A DNA stretch of 6,784 nt from Candidatus Omnitrophota bacterium (GTDB taxonomy: Bacteria > Omnitrophota > Omnitrophia > Omnitrophales > JACROU01): assembly GCA_029261035.1 (NCBI GenBank), contig JAJDCD010000021.1:1-6784 (forward strand), in the 5' to 3' direction. The position numbers were made by a program, and so were the translations under genes. Below are positions 1 through 6,784 of the stretch, one piece after another (position 1 is the first letter of the stretch; the number at the start of each line of letters is the position of its first letter). Below the pieces are notes generated by a model. That model worked only from the letters and a program-made list of their open reading frames with translations, had not been told where the DNA came from and searched no databases.

Positions 1-711
1 AGAGAGAGTAAAGGTGCTGTTGAAATCTAAAGTGCCCGTTGCTCCTTGGAAGACACCATCTGCTTGGTTATAAGTACCATCCATAGTTAATGTGAAAGTT
101 GCAGCATTAAAAATGGTTGTTGCATCCGCTGCTGCTAAAAACCGAAGAGAACCCGTGGATGAAATAGTTAAATTAGTAGCTAATGTAATAGTTTCTCCAG
201 GGTCATCTAATGTTAACTGAGCAGAGAAGAAGCCTGCTGTAATTGATATGGTATGAGTTGCGCTATTACCACTGAAACCTAATTCTAATGAAGCATTTCC
301 AAAAGTGGAACCGATTCCTGATTGACTATAATTTCCATGAACCGTGATTCTACGAGTTCCTCCTAATCCATTAATGCCACTATTGGTATTGGTAAGCGTA
401 AGGTTTCCAGTCACTAAAAGATTAGAGGTTATATTTTTCGTACCGCTCGTGTGAGAGATGGTTAAGTTTGCAATCGTAGCTCCTCCTGATTGACTGACAC
501 TTGCTGTGCTAAAATCAAGGTTAACTCCATCGGCGCTACCTCCTGTTTGTGTCCAATTGCCCGCAACACGAATGCTACCGGTAGTAACAGTGACGGCTCC
601 AGCATCTTGAGTGTAAGCTCCATTAACATCAACCGTATTTCCTTCGATATTTAAAGTGCCACTGATATTGATGTTTTGAGGGATGGTAACGTTACCTCCA
701 GGAGTGTATAT
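1..711 (-). other. Beta-helix block C (residues about 2025-2261, C-terminal end outside window)
   Basis: Helix repeats resume at IYTPGGNVTI with short rungs: NISGTLNIEGN, VNGAYTQDAG and GNWTQTGG. A lead-in (GINGLGGTRRITVHGNYSQ) and cassette copy 7 follow. The last rungs before the edge read DGTYNQADGVFQ and GTLDFNSTFTLS. The frame is still open at position 1, so the protein continues. Confidence 0.68.
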
Positions 712-3700
712 TCCTCCAGTCATTACTTTCAGAGTTCTGCTGGCATTCATGGTGAGATTACTACCTGCAACAGAATAAACCATATCAGCTGTATCTGCAG
801 TTCGTCTTGCGGCTAATAGGTTAGCGTTGGTAAGGGGAGTTACTCCATCATCAGTTCGTAGGGAAAGTGTGTTGGTTAAAATATCAAAATTATTTATATT
901 TGCAGTTCCATCGGATCTGGTTACTGAATTACCATCAGTGCTATCATTAATATAAACAAGAATAACGTCATTATCACTTAAAGAGATTCCAGCGAAGCTA
1001 TAAGATCCGTCTCCACTACCTGTTGTGGTGTTAAACACTTTTCCTTCATCGTTGTTTATAATAAGAGTAATTGTTATTCCATTGGCCAAGCCAACAGCTT
1101 TTCCTGATACGGTTACACCAACAATAAACCAATCCGTATTATTTCCAGAGTCAATACTATTTGGAGGATTGATAGCAACTCCATTTTGATTTACACTGTC
1201 TTGAACATCTAGGAAGTTAGTTGTAATCCCTGCCTGTGGATTGATGTTATGAGTAACTCCTGCAGTACTACTTCTTAGGAGTAGACGGTTAGCTGCATTT
1301 TGACCTTGTAAGTTTAAGGCGCCAGCAATTGCGCTAGTAGAAGCATCAGCAAATGTAAGGGTAGCACCACCTGCAGTTAAAACTTTGGTCAAATTAAAGA
1401 AGGTAGTATCACCTGTAATTAATTGGCTGCCAGTACCTAAATCAACAGTTCCACTATTATGTGTGAAGGTACCCCCGTTGTTTGTCCAGTTGCCTGTGTT
1501 TGTAAACGTTCCACTTGTAGAAACAAAAACACCACCACCATTTAATGTGAAATCACCTGTGTTGTTAATGGCATGACTAGAACCATTAAAAGTTCCGCTA
1601 ATAACCATGTTGACTACGTTAAGTGATTCATTTTGATTGAAGGTTGCTCCCGTAAGAACATTAAATGTTAAGTTTCCATTTACGGTCATTGGGTTTGCGT
1701 TTTGGTTTACAGTACCTGCTGATTGAGTGTAAGTTCCATTAACAATCAGAGTAGAGGTGATTTCAAAAGTCTCAGTTCCGCTGATGGTTAAGTTGTGATA
1801 GTCTAAATTTCCACCACCAATATCAAAGTTTTTAATATTGTAAGTAGCAGTACCTCCAGGACCATCTCCAGTATAATTCCAAGTTCCAGAATCAACGTCT
1901 TGTGGGAATGTGGCAGGGAAGAAGGATTCATTTCCTTGTAGTTTTATTTCACCATTATTTGAAAAAGTGGAACTAACGTTTAAACTAACATTATTTCCGT
2001 TAATATTGAGTGTACCTGCAGTAATAGAGAGGTTATTGTTTGCGAATAGAATTAATGTTTGAGCAAGAGTAATCTCTCCGCCTGTTTTATTAACATCAAA
2101 ATGAGCATTAAAAGTACCGCCTGTAACTGTATATAATTGATTTCCATTTCCAGTAAAGGAAAGGGTTATAGGGTTTGTGCCATTATCAAAAAAGCCGCCT
2201 GTGAGAGTGAAGTTTCCTTCAGTTGAAACTGTAATAGCGGTAGAAGCATCCACTTGACGTCCAACTGTAACGTCTCCTTGAGCATTAAGATTCGTGTCTA
2301 ATGTTTTATTCCCACTCGTGTGATTAAAGTTTACATTAAAGAAATTAACGCCACTTGCAGAAATGTTAGCATCCGAACCATTAAAAGCAAAGGTTCCGTT
2401 GTTATGGTTAAAAGTAGCCCCTGCACCAATGTTGGAGAAGGTTGTTGCCCCGGCAACACTTATTGTTCCAGATGGTGCGGTAAACGTTCCTCCAGAAAGT
2501 GTCCATGCACCTGGAACAGTCATGTTTCCACTGCCTCCATTAAAGACACCACCCGTTTGATTGTAAATTACAGGGTTAAAATCAAAACCATTGGCATTAA
2601 ATGTTCCATTAGAAAGGGTCACTGTAAAACTATTGGTCGTAAAATTAGTAGCAAGATTAATAATTTCGTTCGCATTATTAATATTCAATCGACCTAAGAA
2701 AGTTCCGCTAGTCTGAGTGATGGTGTGAGTGGTATCTCCTTCAAAATTAATCTGAAGGCTGCTGTGTCCAAGAGTAATAGGACCAGAACCTACAGGACCT
2801 AACTCTAAGTTTCCTTCTATTCTAAGGAAACGGTTTGTTCCATCAGCATTAACAGTCCCTGTCACTCCAGCTCCTGCTGTTCTGACAATGAGATTTCCTC
2901 CAACTCTAATATCTCCAACTAAGGTATGCGTTCCATTAACGCTAATATTAAAAGTCACGTTATTGAATGTGGCTCCTCCTGGATCTACATTGTGGGTTCC
3001 TCCAGTAAATTCAAATGTTCCATTATTTGCATTAAATGTTGCTCCACCTCCAATGTTTGAGAAAGTAGATATACCTGCTACACTCGTTGTTCCTGAAACT
3101 GCTGTAAAAGTTCCTCCGCTGAAGGTAAAGGCTCCTGGGACGGTCATGTTTCCACTGCCCCCATTAAAGACACCACCCGTTTGATTGTAAATTACAGGGT
3201 TAAAGTCAAAACCATTGGCATTAAACGTTCCATTAGAAAGAGTGACTGTAAAACTATTGGTGGTGAAATTGGTAGCAAGGTTAATAACTTCGTTGGCATT
3301 ATTGATACTTAATCGTCCTAAGAAGGTCCCGCTGGTTTGCGTGATAGTGTGAGTTGTATCTCCTTCAAAGTTCATTTGAAGATTATTGTCTCCAATAGTG
3401 ATTGGTCCTGAACCCACAGGGCCTAATTCAAAGTTTCCTTCCATTCTAAGGAAACGATTCGTGCTGTCGGCGTTGACCGTTCCTGTAATTCCAACCCCCG
3501 AAGTTCTAACAATTAAATCACCACCCACTCTCATATCTCCTGTCAGTGTATGAACAGCTCCATTCGTTGTAATATTAAACGTGACATCATTAAAGGTTGC
3601 TCCTCCTGGATTGATGTTATGTGTCGTTCCATCAAAGACAAAGGTTCCACCATTAGCGCTAAATGTAGCTCCGGCTCCAATATTGGACATAGCTACGGTG

Positions 3701-6700
3701 GAAGCAACGTTTGTTGTTCCGCTTGTAGCTGTATAATCTCCTCCTGATAGAGTAAAACTAAAATTAAAATCATGTGTTCCACTACCACCATTAAATGTTC
3801 CATTGCTAAGAGTAACAGCTCCTCCAACAGTCATGTTTGAAGTCCCTGGATTAAATGTTCCACCACTTTGATTGTAAATGGCTGGATTAAAATCGAAACC
3901 ATTGGTATTTAAAATTCCGTTTGAAACACTAAAGGTGAAGCTGATGCCTGTAAAGTTAGAAGCAAGATTAACGGTTTCGTTGGCATCATTAATATTCATG
4001 CGTCCAACAAATGTTCCGCTGGTTTGGGTGATCGTGTGGGTTGTGTCTCCAGCAAACTTGAAATTTAAGTTTGTGTTTCCTACAGTAATAGGGCCGCTGC
4101 CGGCAGGACCCATTTCAAAGTTACCTAGAATTGTGATAATTCTAGATGTACCGTCAGCAATATAGGTTCCTGTGATTCCAGCGGAATTAGTACGATAAAG
4201 TAGGTCGCCAGCTACGGTCATACTGCCTGTAAGTGTGTGAGTCGCATTATTATTAGCGATGTTAAACGTTACATTATTAAAGGTGGCGCCATCAGGACCA
4301 ACGTTGTGAGTGCTGCCATCAAAAACCACAGTTCCGCTGTTGTGTGTGAATGTAGCACCTGCTCCGATATTGGAGAAAATAACGGTACCTGAAATACTGG
4401 TTGTGCCACTTGATGCTGTGTAATTACCACCAGAGAATATAAAACTGTTATTGATATCATGAGTGCCGCTGCCGCCATTAAAAGTACCTTGAGACTGAAC
4501 ATAAGCGGCTCCCATGGTGAGGTTGCTAGAGCCCATGTTCATCGTTCCTCTAATATCGAGAGTTCCACCGGTATTTACGGTAACGTTGGCTCCCGGTGTA
4601 TAAGTTGATCCAGCAAAAATAAACAATTCATCTCCGCTTGAAATTGTTAAATTGTCTGATCCATCTAATGAATAGAGGTCTCCAATGTCTGAGTCACCAC
4701 TGTTATTTGCTGTATCTAAATTATCGTTGGTAATAGGGCCCGCATTTTCGTGGCGCAAAATTAAATGATTTTCAAATAAATTAATGTTAGCCAGCTCGTC
4801 TGAATTTGATAGGGTAACGGTAACAGCTTTTGGAGTTTCATCATCAAGGAATATGGCGACTACATCATTAGCAGATAGTGTTAGTCCTGTAAGTACAAAA
4901 ACTCCATTTGCAGTAGTATTGTTCGAATCAGAAATGGCAGCACCATTAATTGAAATGCTAACAGTTATATTTGCTCCTATAGGAGTAGTTCCATCCGATT
5001 GAAAAACAGTACCCGTAATACTGCCAGGGAAGAGCCAATTAATATTATTTCCTAAGGAACCGCTGTTGGACGTTGTGATAGCAGTCGCATTAATGTTGTT
5101 GCTGTCTTGAACGAGTAAGAAGTTTGCTGTTCGCGCGCCTTGAGGATTAATGAGCCATTGAGTTGTAGGCGTAGAACTATTTAAAGTTAAAAAGTTGCCA
5201 CTAGCTCCTGCAAGATTCATAGCGCTTACAATAATTTGAGTAGTTCCAGCTCCGAAGGTGAGTGTGTCCGTAGTAGCAGTTGTTTTTGTGAAATTATTAA
5301 ATGTGGTTGATCCTAACACAGATTGTCCGGCACCATCCAATTGAACTGTTCCGCTATTGTGAGTAAAAGTACCACCATCTGCACGATCAAAATTACCTTC
5401 AACCGTCATGGTGCCATTGGTAGAAGTAAAAGTACCACCATTTTGATCAAAGTCACCATTGGCAGGAGCATTAGCATTGATGTCGATAGCGTCTCCAGCG
5501 GATGAGCCAGTAAAAGTTCCACCGTTAATAATCATATTACCGTTAACAGTTAATAGAGCTGTTTGAGTGTAGAGCCCTGCGTTTAAAGTAAAAGTATTAG
5601 GGCCGTTCACTGAAAACGTATTTCCGTTTTGTGCAAAAGTCCCTGCTTCTAGAGTGTAGCTACCATCGACAACGGTAGAGCTACCCAGTTGAATGGTGTC
5701 GTTCGTATCCGTAGGGTTGATCGTTAAATTAAAATAATCTGTTGCCCCAAAGTCTTTAACGGTAAATGTATCTGCAAGTGTATCTCCATCTCCAACATAT
5801 TCCCATGTACCAGAATTTATGTCTTGAGTGAGGCCTGTAATTGCTTCTGCCCCTTGTAACCTTAAGGTTCCTGTGTTTGAGAAGCTAGAACCATTCATGG
5901 TTAAAGATTGACCGTTTAGCGAGAGAACTCCTGATTGAATATCTAGAGCTCTTGCAACATTAAAGTTGAGAGTGTTTAGAAGTGTTACTTCGCCACCTGT
6001 TTTATTAACAGTAAAATTTGTTCTAAACCTTCCCACAGTATGAGTGTATGTTTGAGACCCCGCGCCTTGGAATGAAAGAGTTAAAGTGTCAGAGACATTA
6101 GACCCAAAATTAACATTAACAGTTAGAGAAAAATTACCAGATAAGTTAATTGTTCTTGGTGTTCCATCTCCTTGAATTGTGACTGCGGTGGAAATAGGTG
6201 CTACTGATAAATTTCCTGTAATAGTAAAGTCGCTACCAAAGGTGTATGTACCTGTATTGTTATTAAAAGTTAAGTTACCTATAGTCGCTGCGCCACTTTG
6301 AGTTACTGTAACTGTTGTTCCATCAAAAATAAGAGCAGCGATTGTTCCACCTGTTTGATTAAAAGTAGAACTTGCCCGGACAGTCCCTGTGCCTGCGGTA
6401 ATGTCTCCACCCGTTTGAGAATAATCTCTATCAATGTTAAGTGTATTATTACCTAGATTGAGTGTTCCTGCAGTCATAATGAAGGATCCTGTAGTTGAAA
6501 TCAAAAATGATGCTGATGTTAATGTTACGGAGCCGCCAGATTTGTTGATGTTAAGATTTCCTCTAAAAAATCCACCTGTCTGAGAGAGCGTTTGTGTTCC
6601 TGCGCCACTAACTTCAAGAGTTAAATTATCATTACCAAAAACACCTTGAGTAGAAGAATAATTGCCTAAGAGAGTCAATGTTCTAGGGGTGGCATCGGCA

Positions 6701-6784
6701 AAAATCTTTGCATTTGTTCCTGCGGAGATAGAAGCTACGGTAAGGTTTCCGTTGACTATAATATTACTTACGAGTGTAACAGTC
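1..6784 (-). CDS. Giant beta-strand-repeat surface protein, internal fragment (both ends outside window)
   Basis: One minus-strand frame is open across the entire window: I read all 113 full lines codon by codon and met no stop in 2261 codons. Neither the initiator nor the terminator is present, so the full protein exceeds 2261 residues. The translation is dominated by Thr, Asn, Gly and Ser with alternating hydrophobic residues and short turns such as GGTFT, HNSGTV and NGGSGT. No Cys codon was seen, Lys is sparse, and there are eight Trp. This pattern fits stacked right-handed beta-helix rungs in an exported protein, interrupted twice by a small Ig/transthyretin-like domain. No signal peptide, transmembrane helix, autotransporter barrel, sortase motif or catalytic motif is visible, so export route and anchoring are unknown. 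In-frame Met codons occur, but the repeat pattern continues upstream of each, so none is taken as a start. The probable role is a surface fibre or adhesin (inference). Coding on this strand is near certain; function is weak. Confidence 0.93.
181..288 (-). repeat. Cassette copy 7 (36 residues)
   Basis: The copy starts LELGFSGNSATHTIS and ends DDPGETITL. It is one residue longer than the other six. The ending DDPGETITL is intermediate between the NKTGGE.TL and N.ANE..NL forms. Confidence 0.7.
712..885 (-). other. Conserved linker B after the Ig-like domain (residues about 1967-2024)
   Basis: This is the counterpart of 4800-4609. It contains TNTLSLRTDDG, TPLTNANLLAARRTADTAD and SVAGSNLTMNASRTLKV, and ends at the IYTPGGNVTI helix start. 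Shared positions with linker A are L.LR, P.TN.NL, the downstream Asp and NLT. Unlike the Asp-rich linker A, this copy has a short basic stretch (AARR). I recognise no named family. Confidence 0.55.
886..1128 (-). other. Ig/transthyretin-like inserted domain B (residues about 1886-1966)
   Basis: The domain follows the closing Trp and reads FIVGVTVSGKAVGLANG, ITITLIINNDEGKVF, then GSGDGSYSFAGISLSDNDVI and LVYINDSTDG. The DGSYSFAG.SLSDNDVI core matches ANGVFVLTGLTLSANDVV in domain A, and the position relative to the closing motif is the same. It lacks the SDGTTPIGA segment of domain A. The fold is most likely the same beta-sandwich, assigned by pattern. Its role as spacer or head between fibre segments is inferred. 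Confidence 0.58.
1129..1245 (-). other. 39-residue beta-helix closing motif, copy 2
   Basis: The segment starts INPQAGITTNFLDVQDS and ends SGNNTDW at 1131-1129, aligning without gaps to the copy at 5151-5035. Invariant positions include INPQ, T.NFL.VQDS, N, AI, NS, GNN and the final Trp. It closes block B just before the second Ig-like domain. Confidence 0.7.
2065..2169 (-). repeat. 35-residue cassette, copy 6
   Basis: The copy starts ITLSFTGNGNQLYTV and ends VNKTGGEITL. It is the counterpart of copy 2 and opens super-module II. Immediately upstream is STEGNFTLTGGFFDNGTNP, a shortened version of the usual lead-in. Confidence 0.76.
2305..2928 (-). repeat. Tandem unit 3 (208 residues)
   Basis: This unit starts HTLVGDIRVGGNLIVRT and runs for exactly 208 codons, matching unit 2. 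The first two thirds are nearly the same as unit 2. The last third drifts (GSDANISASGVNFFNVNF) and leads into TLDTNLNAQGD, where the regular array ends and cassette copy 6 begins after a shortened lead-in. It is the last of the tandem units. Confidence 0.85.
2653..2757 (-). repeat. 35-residue cassette, copy 5 (inside unit 3)
   Basis: The copy starts LQINFEGDTTHTITQ and ends NNANEIINL, lying exactly 624 bases from copy 4. It belongs to the N.ANE sub-family of the cassette. Confidence 0.78.
2929..3552 (-). repeat. Tandem unit 2 (208 residues)
   Basis: This unit starts HTLTGDMRVGGDLIVRT and has the same internal order as unit 1 without the extra rung. Its central stretch is almost identical in protein to unit 3: GDTTHTITQTSGTFLGRL, INLATNFTTNSFTVTL, SNGTFNANGFDFNPV and YNQTGGVFNGGSGNMTV. 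The repeat offset to unit 3 is exactly 624 bases. Divergence is concentrated in the last third (FEFTGGTHNVDPGG here against FAFNGSDANISASG in unit 3). Confidence 0.85.
3277..3381 (-). repeat. 35-residue cassette, copy 4 (inside unit 2)
   Basis: The copy starts LQMNFEGDTTHTITQ and ends NNANEVINL. It differs from copy 5 at only three residues (Met/Ile, Ser/Asn and Val/Ile). Confidence 0.78.
3553..4239 (-). repeat. Tandem unit 1 (229 residues)
   Basis: This is the first complete unit, from HTLTGSMTVAGD to the residue before the next HTLTGDMRV. The order is lead-in (NSAGITGTYIADGTSR, GNFEMGPAGSGP), cassette copy 3, GFDFNPAIYNQSGGTF, NMTVGGAVTL, the extra rung, TSGTTNVAST, FSANGGTFVFDGTTHN and GATFNDVTFN. 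It is 21 residues longer than units 2 and 3: 20 come from one additional rung (about 3813-3754) and one from NGAVH against NGTH. It is also the most divergent of the three. Confidence 0.8.
3964..4068 (-). repeat. 35-residue cassette, copy 3 (inside unit 1)
   Basis: The copy starts LNFKFAGDTTHTITQ and ends NDANETVNL. In the tandem units the NK.GGE.TL ending of the other copies is replaced by N.ANE..NL, with the same 35-codon length. This defines a sub-family shared by copies 3, 4 and 5. Confidence 0.75.
4240..4524 (-). repeat. Tandem unit 0 (C-terminal 95 residues only)
   Basis: This is the entry to the tandem array. It starts NLTMGAAYVQSQG and continues TFNGGSGTHDI, SGGNYTASSGT, FSNIGAGATFTHNSG and ATFNNVTFN. 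It aligns without net length change to the last 285 bases of unit 1 (3837-3553). The first part of the unit, including the cassette, is missing, so the array begins mid-unit after the YTPGANVTV cap. Like unit 1, it has the extra 20-residue rung. Confidence 0.72.
4609..4800 (-). other. Conserved linker A after the Ig-like domain (residues about 662-725)
   Basis: This segment has no GGTFT rungs. It includes ANINLFENHLILRHENAG, PITNDNLDTANNSGDSD and GDLYSLDGSDNLTI, and leads into STYTPGANVTV, where the helix repeats resume. It is rich in Asp, Asn and Ser. It aligns with 885-712 around the shared frame IN.F...L.LR....P.TN.NL..A. I do not recognise a named family. A role as adaptor and N-terminal cap of the next beta-helix is inferred from position. 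Confidence 0.55.
4801..5028 (-). other. Ig/transthyretin-like inserted domain A (residues about 586-661)
   Basis: Directly after the closing Trp, the composition changes to a compact domain. It has GSITGTVF, then SDGTTPIGANITVSI, then an NGVFVLTGLTLSANDVV stretch and FLDDETPKAVTVTL. The order (G.V, DG.PI.GA.V, DG.F...GL) matches the carboxypeptidase-regulatory-like / transthyretin-like or Cna-B-like beta-sandwich pattern of extracellular proteins. It has about 76 residues, which fits those folds. It lies between two beta-helix blocks and probably acts as a rigid spacer or binding head. The family is assigned by pattern only; another Ig-like family is possible. Confidence 0.6.
5035..5151 (-). 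other. 39-residue beta-helix closing motif, copy 1
   Basis: The segment starts INPQGARTANFLLVQDS and ends GNNINW at 5037-5035. It aligns without gaps to the copy at 1245-1129, which is also exactly 39 residues. The pattern F-L-x-V-Q-D-S ... N-S-x-x-x-G-N-N-x-x-W recalls the ends of beta-helix domains in large secreted repeat proteins, where it is followed by a new domain, as here. I infer that it caps block A. Confidence 0.7.
5980..6084 (-). repeat. 35-residue cassette, copy 2
   Basis: The copy starts LTLSFQGAGSQT and ends VNKTGGEVTL. It is closest to copy 6 (VNKTGGEITL), which lies 3915 bases further along, so the two mark the start of the large super-module. The lead-in from about 6249 contains GDGTPRTINLSGNF. 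The length is exactly 35 codons. Confidence 0.78.
6520..6624 (-). repeat. 35-residue cassette, copy 1
   Basis: This is the first of seven copies of a cassette with consensus L.L.F.G.G.QT.T.T.G.F...L.INK.GG.VTL. This copy begins LTLEVSGAGTQT and ends INKSGGSVTL. The length is exactly 35 codons, as in copies 2 to 6. The preceding lead-in reads ATPRTLTLLGNY, matching the lead-in of the other copies. It probably forms about two beta-helix rungs. Confidence 0.75.

Follow-up and report, generated by a model that had tools for sequence, protein, structure and literature searches.

A stop-free 6.78-kb contig as an internal segment of a giant, probably two-partner-secreted repeat protein of Candidatus Omnitrophota

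The open reading frame and its contig

The stretch of DNA analysed here (the window; 6784 bp) represents contig C14 in full and belongs to genome G000, a draft assembly of 26 contigs and 2.70 Mb that is 94.8% complete. The RpoB protein encoded on contig C10 of this genome exhibits 82, 81, 76, and 66% identity to those of four Candidatus Omnitrophota MAGs, three of which carry groundwater isolate names. A single coding feature spans the window:

1..6783, minus strand: stop-free coding frame of 2261 codons, most probably an interior portion of a giant, TpsA-like exoprotein

The stop codons TAA, TAG, and TGA are all absent from this frame and both of its ends are open, as the first-pass annotation had reported. 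From the base composition of the window, about 143 stops would be expected in it (log10 P of finding none, -64), and the other five frames contain between 83 and 287 stops each. Since the window and contig C14 coincide, the limits of the frame are contig ends and not gene ends. The dN/dS values between the internal repeat copies of the window, and relative to a paralogue on contig C24, range from 0.13 to 0.25, values that make translation of the frame and purifying selection on it very probable. The predicted 2261-residue segment contains 16% Thr, 14% Gly, and 12% Asn, and no cysteine. Although the window corresponds to a complete contig from a draft genome and is bounded by repeat breaks, the improbability of the missing stops and the low dN/dS values make it exceedingly improbable that the frame arose as an artefact of assembly or binning, or is a non-coding repeat open by chance. 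Such an explanation also has to contend with homologous frames, both on C8, C15, C18, C21, and C24, all large contigs of this genome, and in independent assemblies from other genomes of the family and order.

Extension of the contig in both directions, proposed in the first-pass annotation, succeeded on the 3' side of the gene, where a comparison of the contig ends revealed the following link:

1..40, minus strand: exact, unique, and in-frame overlap of 40 bp with contig C15 at its right end (87202-87241)

The joined frame comprises 6253 codons (18.8 kb) up to a stop at C15:75223, with its 5' end open, and the gene is indeed longer than the 6.78 kb of the window. Judged from this overlap, C15 is the probable continuation of the window gene towards its stop; the 40-bp link is shorter than the 141-bp overlaps that connect other contig ends (C8R-C25R, C8R-C13R, C3R-C16R, and C9L-C16R), as a de Bruijn assembly interrupted by repeats would produce. 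On the 5' side, an exact-overlap search among the contig ends found no neighbour for C14. The contig ends where it does because repeats broke the assembly, and a survey that drew on contig ends and selected stretches showed that contigs C2, C7, C14, C17, C23, C25, and C13 (the latter joins C8) each consist of one edge-to-edge open frame. Giant genes are hence cut up in short-read MAGs, and many of the contig ends of G000, those of the window included, lie inside them.

Two further arrangements were observed at contig ends. C13 and C25 share one 141-bp end with C8R, and the other end of C13 lies 170 bp inside C8R, an arrangement that we read as a ~3.4-kb in-frame tandem unit or a strain variant within one giant gene. 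Contig C1 (4099 bp) possesses 55-bp terminal inverted repeats and 141-bp overlaps with C20R and C21R; it looks like a mobile element or a repeat situated between these two ends.

Repeat architecture and predicted fold

The window protein is built from repeats at more than one scale:

4690..6162, minus strand: super-module, first copy (aa 208-698), predicted beta-helix, cap, and linker domain
3673..4299, minus strand: ~208-aa predicted beta-helical repeat, copy 1 (aa 829-1037), 66% identity to copy 2
3046..3672, minus strand: ~208-aa predicted beta-helical repeat, copy 2 (aa 1038-1246)
2422..3045, minus strand: ~208-aa predicted beta-helical repeat, copy 3 (aa 1247-1454), 77% identity to copy 2
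790..2241, minus strand: super-module, second copy (aa 1515-1998), 38-46% identity to the first copy across most of the module
1..636, minus strand: divergent repeat (aa 2050-2261), same type on C15

The two super-module copies are spaced ~1300 aa apart. In the first, the cap ...NPQGART..NNINWLF ends the helix and a non-helical linker (about aa 586-690) follows; the cap pattern NPQ(G/A)...NN.(N/D)W and the subsequent linker domain are common to both copies. The type of repeat that closes C14 (aa 2050-2261) continues at the joined end of C15 in four tandem copies with 64-70% identity. Tandem Repeats Finder detected nothing in the window because the repeat copies are too diverged. A search of the whole window frame against Pfam and NCBIfam returned only a sub-threshold AvrPtoB match (E 0.51), which leaves the window repeats without a family model, and one contig scan with the window protein as the query found no relatives.

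Two window repeats were modelled with AF2, using an alignment built from the window repeats alone. The resulting model is all-beta with short strands (pLDDT 80.8, pTM 0.71). While Foldseek searches with this model gave weak matches only (best E 0.04), parallel beta-helix proteins ranked at the top of the VIA-align search (Z up to 14.9), with tailspikes, UpaB, and pertactin among the highest matches and EtpA lower in the list. We read the window repeat as a parallel beta-helix, a model-based call that concerns the fold and not the function. The AF2 model of the linker domain (aa 520-860) reached a pLDDT of 53 and was set aside.

A paralogous set of giant frames: heads, tails, and partner proteins

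A comparison of the window protein with its own genome yielded 70 matches, all of which fall into one set of long open frames on contigs C2, C3, C7, C8, C14, C15, C17, C18 (both ends), C21, C23, C24, and C25. Nearly all of these frames sit at contig ends or fill their contig. The set totals 50,053 aa, or 5.6% of the genome, a figure in which the alternative repeat branches (C17/C23, C13) are counted once each and strain variants are possible; if it corresponds to four genes, their mean size is ~12,500 aa. Four 5' heads stand against four tails:

C18L: 5' head, open at 3', 7494 aa
C8L: 5' head, open at 3', 7145 aa
C18R: 5' head, open at 3', 4459 aa
C21L: 5' head, open at 3', 2654 aa
C24R: tail with stop, open at 5', 4221 aa
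C15R: tail with stop, open at 5', 4005 aa
C8R: tail with stop, open at 5', 2129 aa
C3L: tail with stop, open at 5', 779 aa

The window thus encodes the middle of a very large protein built from repeats and probably displayed at the cell surface, of which the genome has about four. The heads C18L and C8L each exceed 21 kb on their own, and C14 plus C15 together with the shortest head (2654 aa) would exceed 26 kb; if this head is its own, the full window protein would comprise at least about 8900 aa. The view expressed in the first-pass annotation, that a candidate phylum is the source and the product a giant repeat protein, is borne out, the phylum being Omnitrophota by RpoB; its placement among the largest bacterial genes known is not borne out for a product of more than 6 kaa, probably more than 9 kaa, when set against a published protein of 39,678 aa (PMC10066038).

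A Sec-like N terminus followed by a TPS domain is present in all four heads, to none of which the window's own frame has been joined. The TPS domain is recognized by PF05860 (E 1e-21 to 1e-29) and by TIGR01901, the model of the filamentous hemagglutinin N-terminal domain, and the genome contains exactly four PF05860 matches. It was seen with the first 400 aa as the query, whereas whole-frame Pfam scans missed it. The C18L head aligns with the solved structures of EtpA, the HMW1-type adhesin (2odl), and the heme/hemopexin-binding protein HxuA. Pfam matches to KSHV_K1, AvrPtoB, DUF4822, and similar models on other giant frames were rejected as compositional, because they lie in low-complexity sequence and no single stretch passes alone.

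The genome likewise contains exactly four matches to PF03865 (ShlB/FhaC), each accompanied by POTRA_2:

C21, upstream of the C21L head: one TpsB gene (POTRA_2 + ShlB)
C8, between the C8R tail and the C8L head: two TpsB genes (POTRA_2 + ShlB)
C3, downstream of the C3L tail: one TpsB gene (POTRA_2 + ShlB)

None of the four adjoins the C15 tail, which is the probable tail of the window gene. In the interval C8:21732-32553, flanked on one strand by a giant tail and a giant head, lie the two TpsB genes, along with genes for several small secreted-looking proteins without Pfam matches and for a protein of 973 aa that carries SdrD_B and carboxypeptidase-regulatory-like domains; this region is possibly a surface-fibre operon.

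The first-pass annotation advised a search for a C-terminal anchor. Models of autotransporter barrels and sorting signals (Pfam, NCBIfam) matched the last 300 aa of none of the four tails, and the paralogous heads carry a TPS domain instead. Hence, the window protein is very unlikely to be a monomeric autotransporter of the classical type Va, or a surface protein anchored via a sortase, type IX, or PEP-CTERM system, even though its predicted beta-helical repeats resemble those of such passengers.

Distribution of the system in the phylum

TPS domains were found in 91 of 285 genomes of the phylum and ShlB in 126 of them; 90 of the 91 TPS-bearing genomes possess both. For 100 of the 135 TPS places, a ShlB match lies on the same contig at a distance of at most 10 kb, and genome G105 contains an unbroken pair on one contig that consists of a TpsB protein of 602 aa and a TpsA protein of 6610 aa.

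Repeats of the window type are present in eight of 39 relatives. One of these, genome G018, encodes on its contig C51 a complete frame of 9236 aa in which such repeats follow a Sec-like, non-TPS N terminus, and neither a TPS nor a ShlB match was found in this genome. The repeat can therefore travel with other heads, and repeat homology alone is no proof of the export route. Considered together with the unjoined head of the window gene, the G018 frame lends some weight to the idea that the window belongs to a secreted repeat protein of giant size that has a Sec signal but takes another route across the outer membrane, or uses no dedicated outer-membrane transporter. We nevertheless consider this improbable, since all four heads in the window's own genome are of the TPS type and the tails also number four, so that a 94.8% complete genome has no spare non-TPS head to offer.

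A second family of large proteins in the same genome

Genome G000 contains a second, larger family of big proteins, with members at C26:18885-67484(-), C21:121362-154848, C3:17429-32517, and C24:422993-430892. Its motif, IQDAHxxxxAQxxI, occurs at 38 places in the genome. The family members possess a Sec-like N terminus, the motif about 50-110 aa in, variable middles (PGM/PMM and UDPGP domains in one member, WD40 in another), and a common C-terminal part that ends in AA or MA. The shortest of their frames comprise about 500 aa and the longest, C26:18885-67484, 16,199 aa; the latter lies complete within its contig and encodes a single cysteine. The members at C24:422993 and 426894 are not matched by the motif but have the C-terminal ending in common with the family. 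No Pfam model reached its cut-off on the tested N- and C-terminal parts of these proteins.

Proposed mechanism of export

Taken together, we are confident that the window encodes the beta-helical stalk in the interior of a giant Candidatus Omnitrophota exoprotein of the two-partner-secretion kind (type Vb, TpsA/FhaB-like). The sequence evidence suggests that export most likely proceeds by the same two-protein route as that of filamentous hemagglutinin, and the window's own head would then be one of the four TPS heads. In such a pathway, the protein would be exported by Sec, whereupon its N-terminal TPS domain would engage a TpsB barrel through the latter's POTRA domains. The polypeptide would thread out in an unfolded state and then fold progressively into a very long parallel beta-helix interrupted by small linker domains. 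The resulting structure could serve as a surface fibre or adhesin towards other cells or surfaces, and we infer that the window protein probably has an adhesin role. A hierarchical duplication of repeats, in which short coils, ~208-aa repeats, and super-modules about 1300 aa apart were multiplied, would explain both the size of the gene and the broken assembly.

With regard to the phylum as a whole, we lean slightly towards the view that Omnitrophota export megadalton-scale beta-helical fibres via FhaC-type pores, with four such genes in the present genome (~50,000 aa), and that the phylum's unexplained giant ORFs rely on two-partner secretion as a main route of export. If so, these pores would handle substrates that exceed the characterised TpsA proteins several-fold in length. 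The TPS heads and their FhaC-type partners provide a testable mechanism for one set of Omnitrophota giant ORFs.

Comparison with known systems

Seymour et al. (2023, PMC10066038) reported that giant ORFs of more than 20 kb occur commonly in several Omnitrophota classes, with proposed roles in adhesion or predation; the published giants of the phylum reach 39,678 aa, in Ca. Velamenicoccus archaeovorus (PMC10066038). In the excerpted text of that paper, the giant ORFs carry either predicted transmembrane helices or only a small number of annotated domains, and the text gives no route for their secretion. Giant ORFs of Omnitrophota are also reported in PMC11573180 and PMC12057145. Their existence is thus already published, and the secretion assignment is the addition made here: the proteins of the present genome come from the same phylum as those of Seymour et al., compared by their description in the excerpted text alone, and TPS heads and TpsB partners have been identified for them. 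The literature searched contained no paper that ties Omnitrophota or Omnitrophica to two-partner secretion or filamentous hemagglutinin, and Omnitrophota and hemagglutinin coincided in an unrelated mention only; the giant-gene work of West-Roberts et al. (bioRxiv, cited in PMC12057145) lay outside this search and may mention two-partner secretion.

The proteins Cag_0614 and Cag_0616 of Chlorobium chlorochromatii, described as giant and as hemagglutinin-like and RTX-adhesin-like, have a proposed role in cell-cell contact within a consortium (PMC4053972). Compared by description, they resemble the window protein in their giant size and hemagglutinin-like character, but belong to another phylum and are reported to possess internally repeated RTX-family calcium-binding domains (PMC4053972).

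Among known systems, the closest likeness is to the TpsA proteins FhaB, HMW1A, HxuA, and EtpA. As in these proteins, the paralogous heads begin with a Sec-like N terminus followed by the TPS domain (PF05860, TIGR01901), FhaC/ShlB partners are encoded in the same genome, and the Cys-poor repeat body is modelled as a beta-helix. Characterised TpsA proteins usually comprise about 1,500-5,600 aa. The proteins considered here are unlike them in being far longer, with single heads that reach 7494 aa without a stop.
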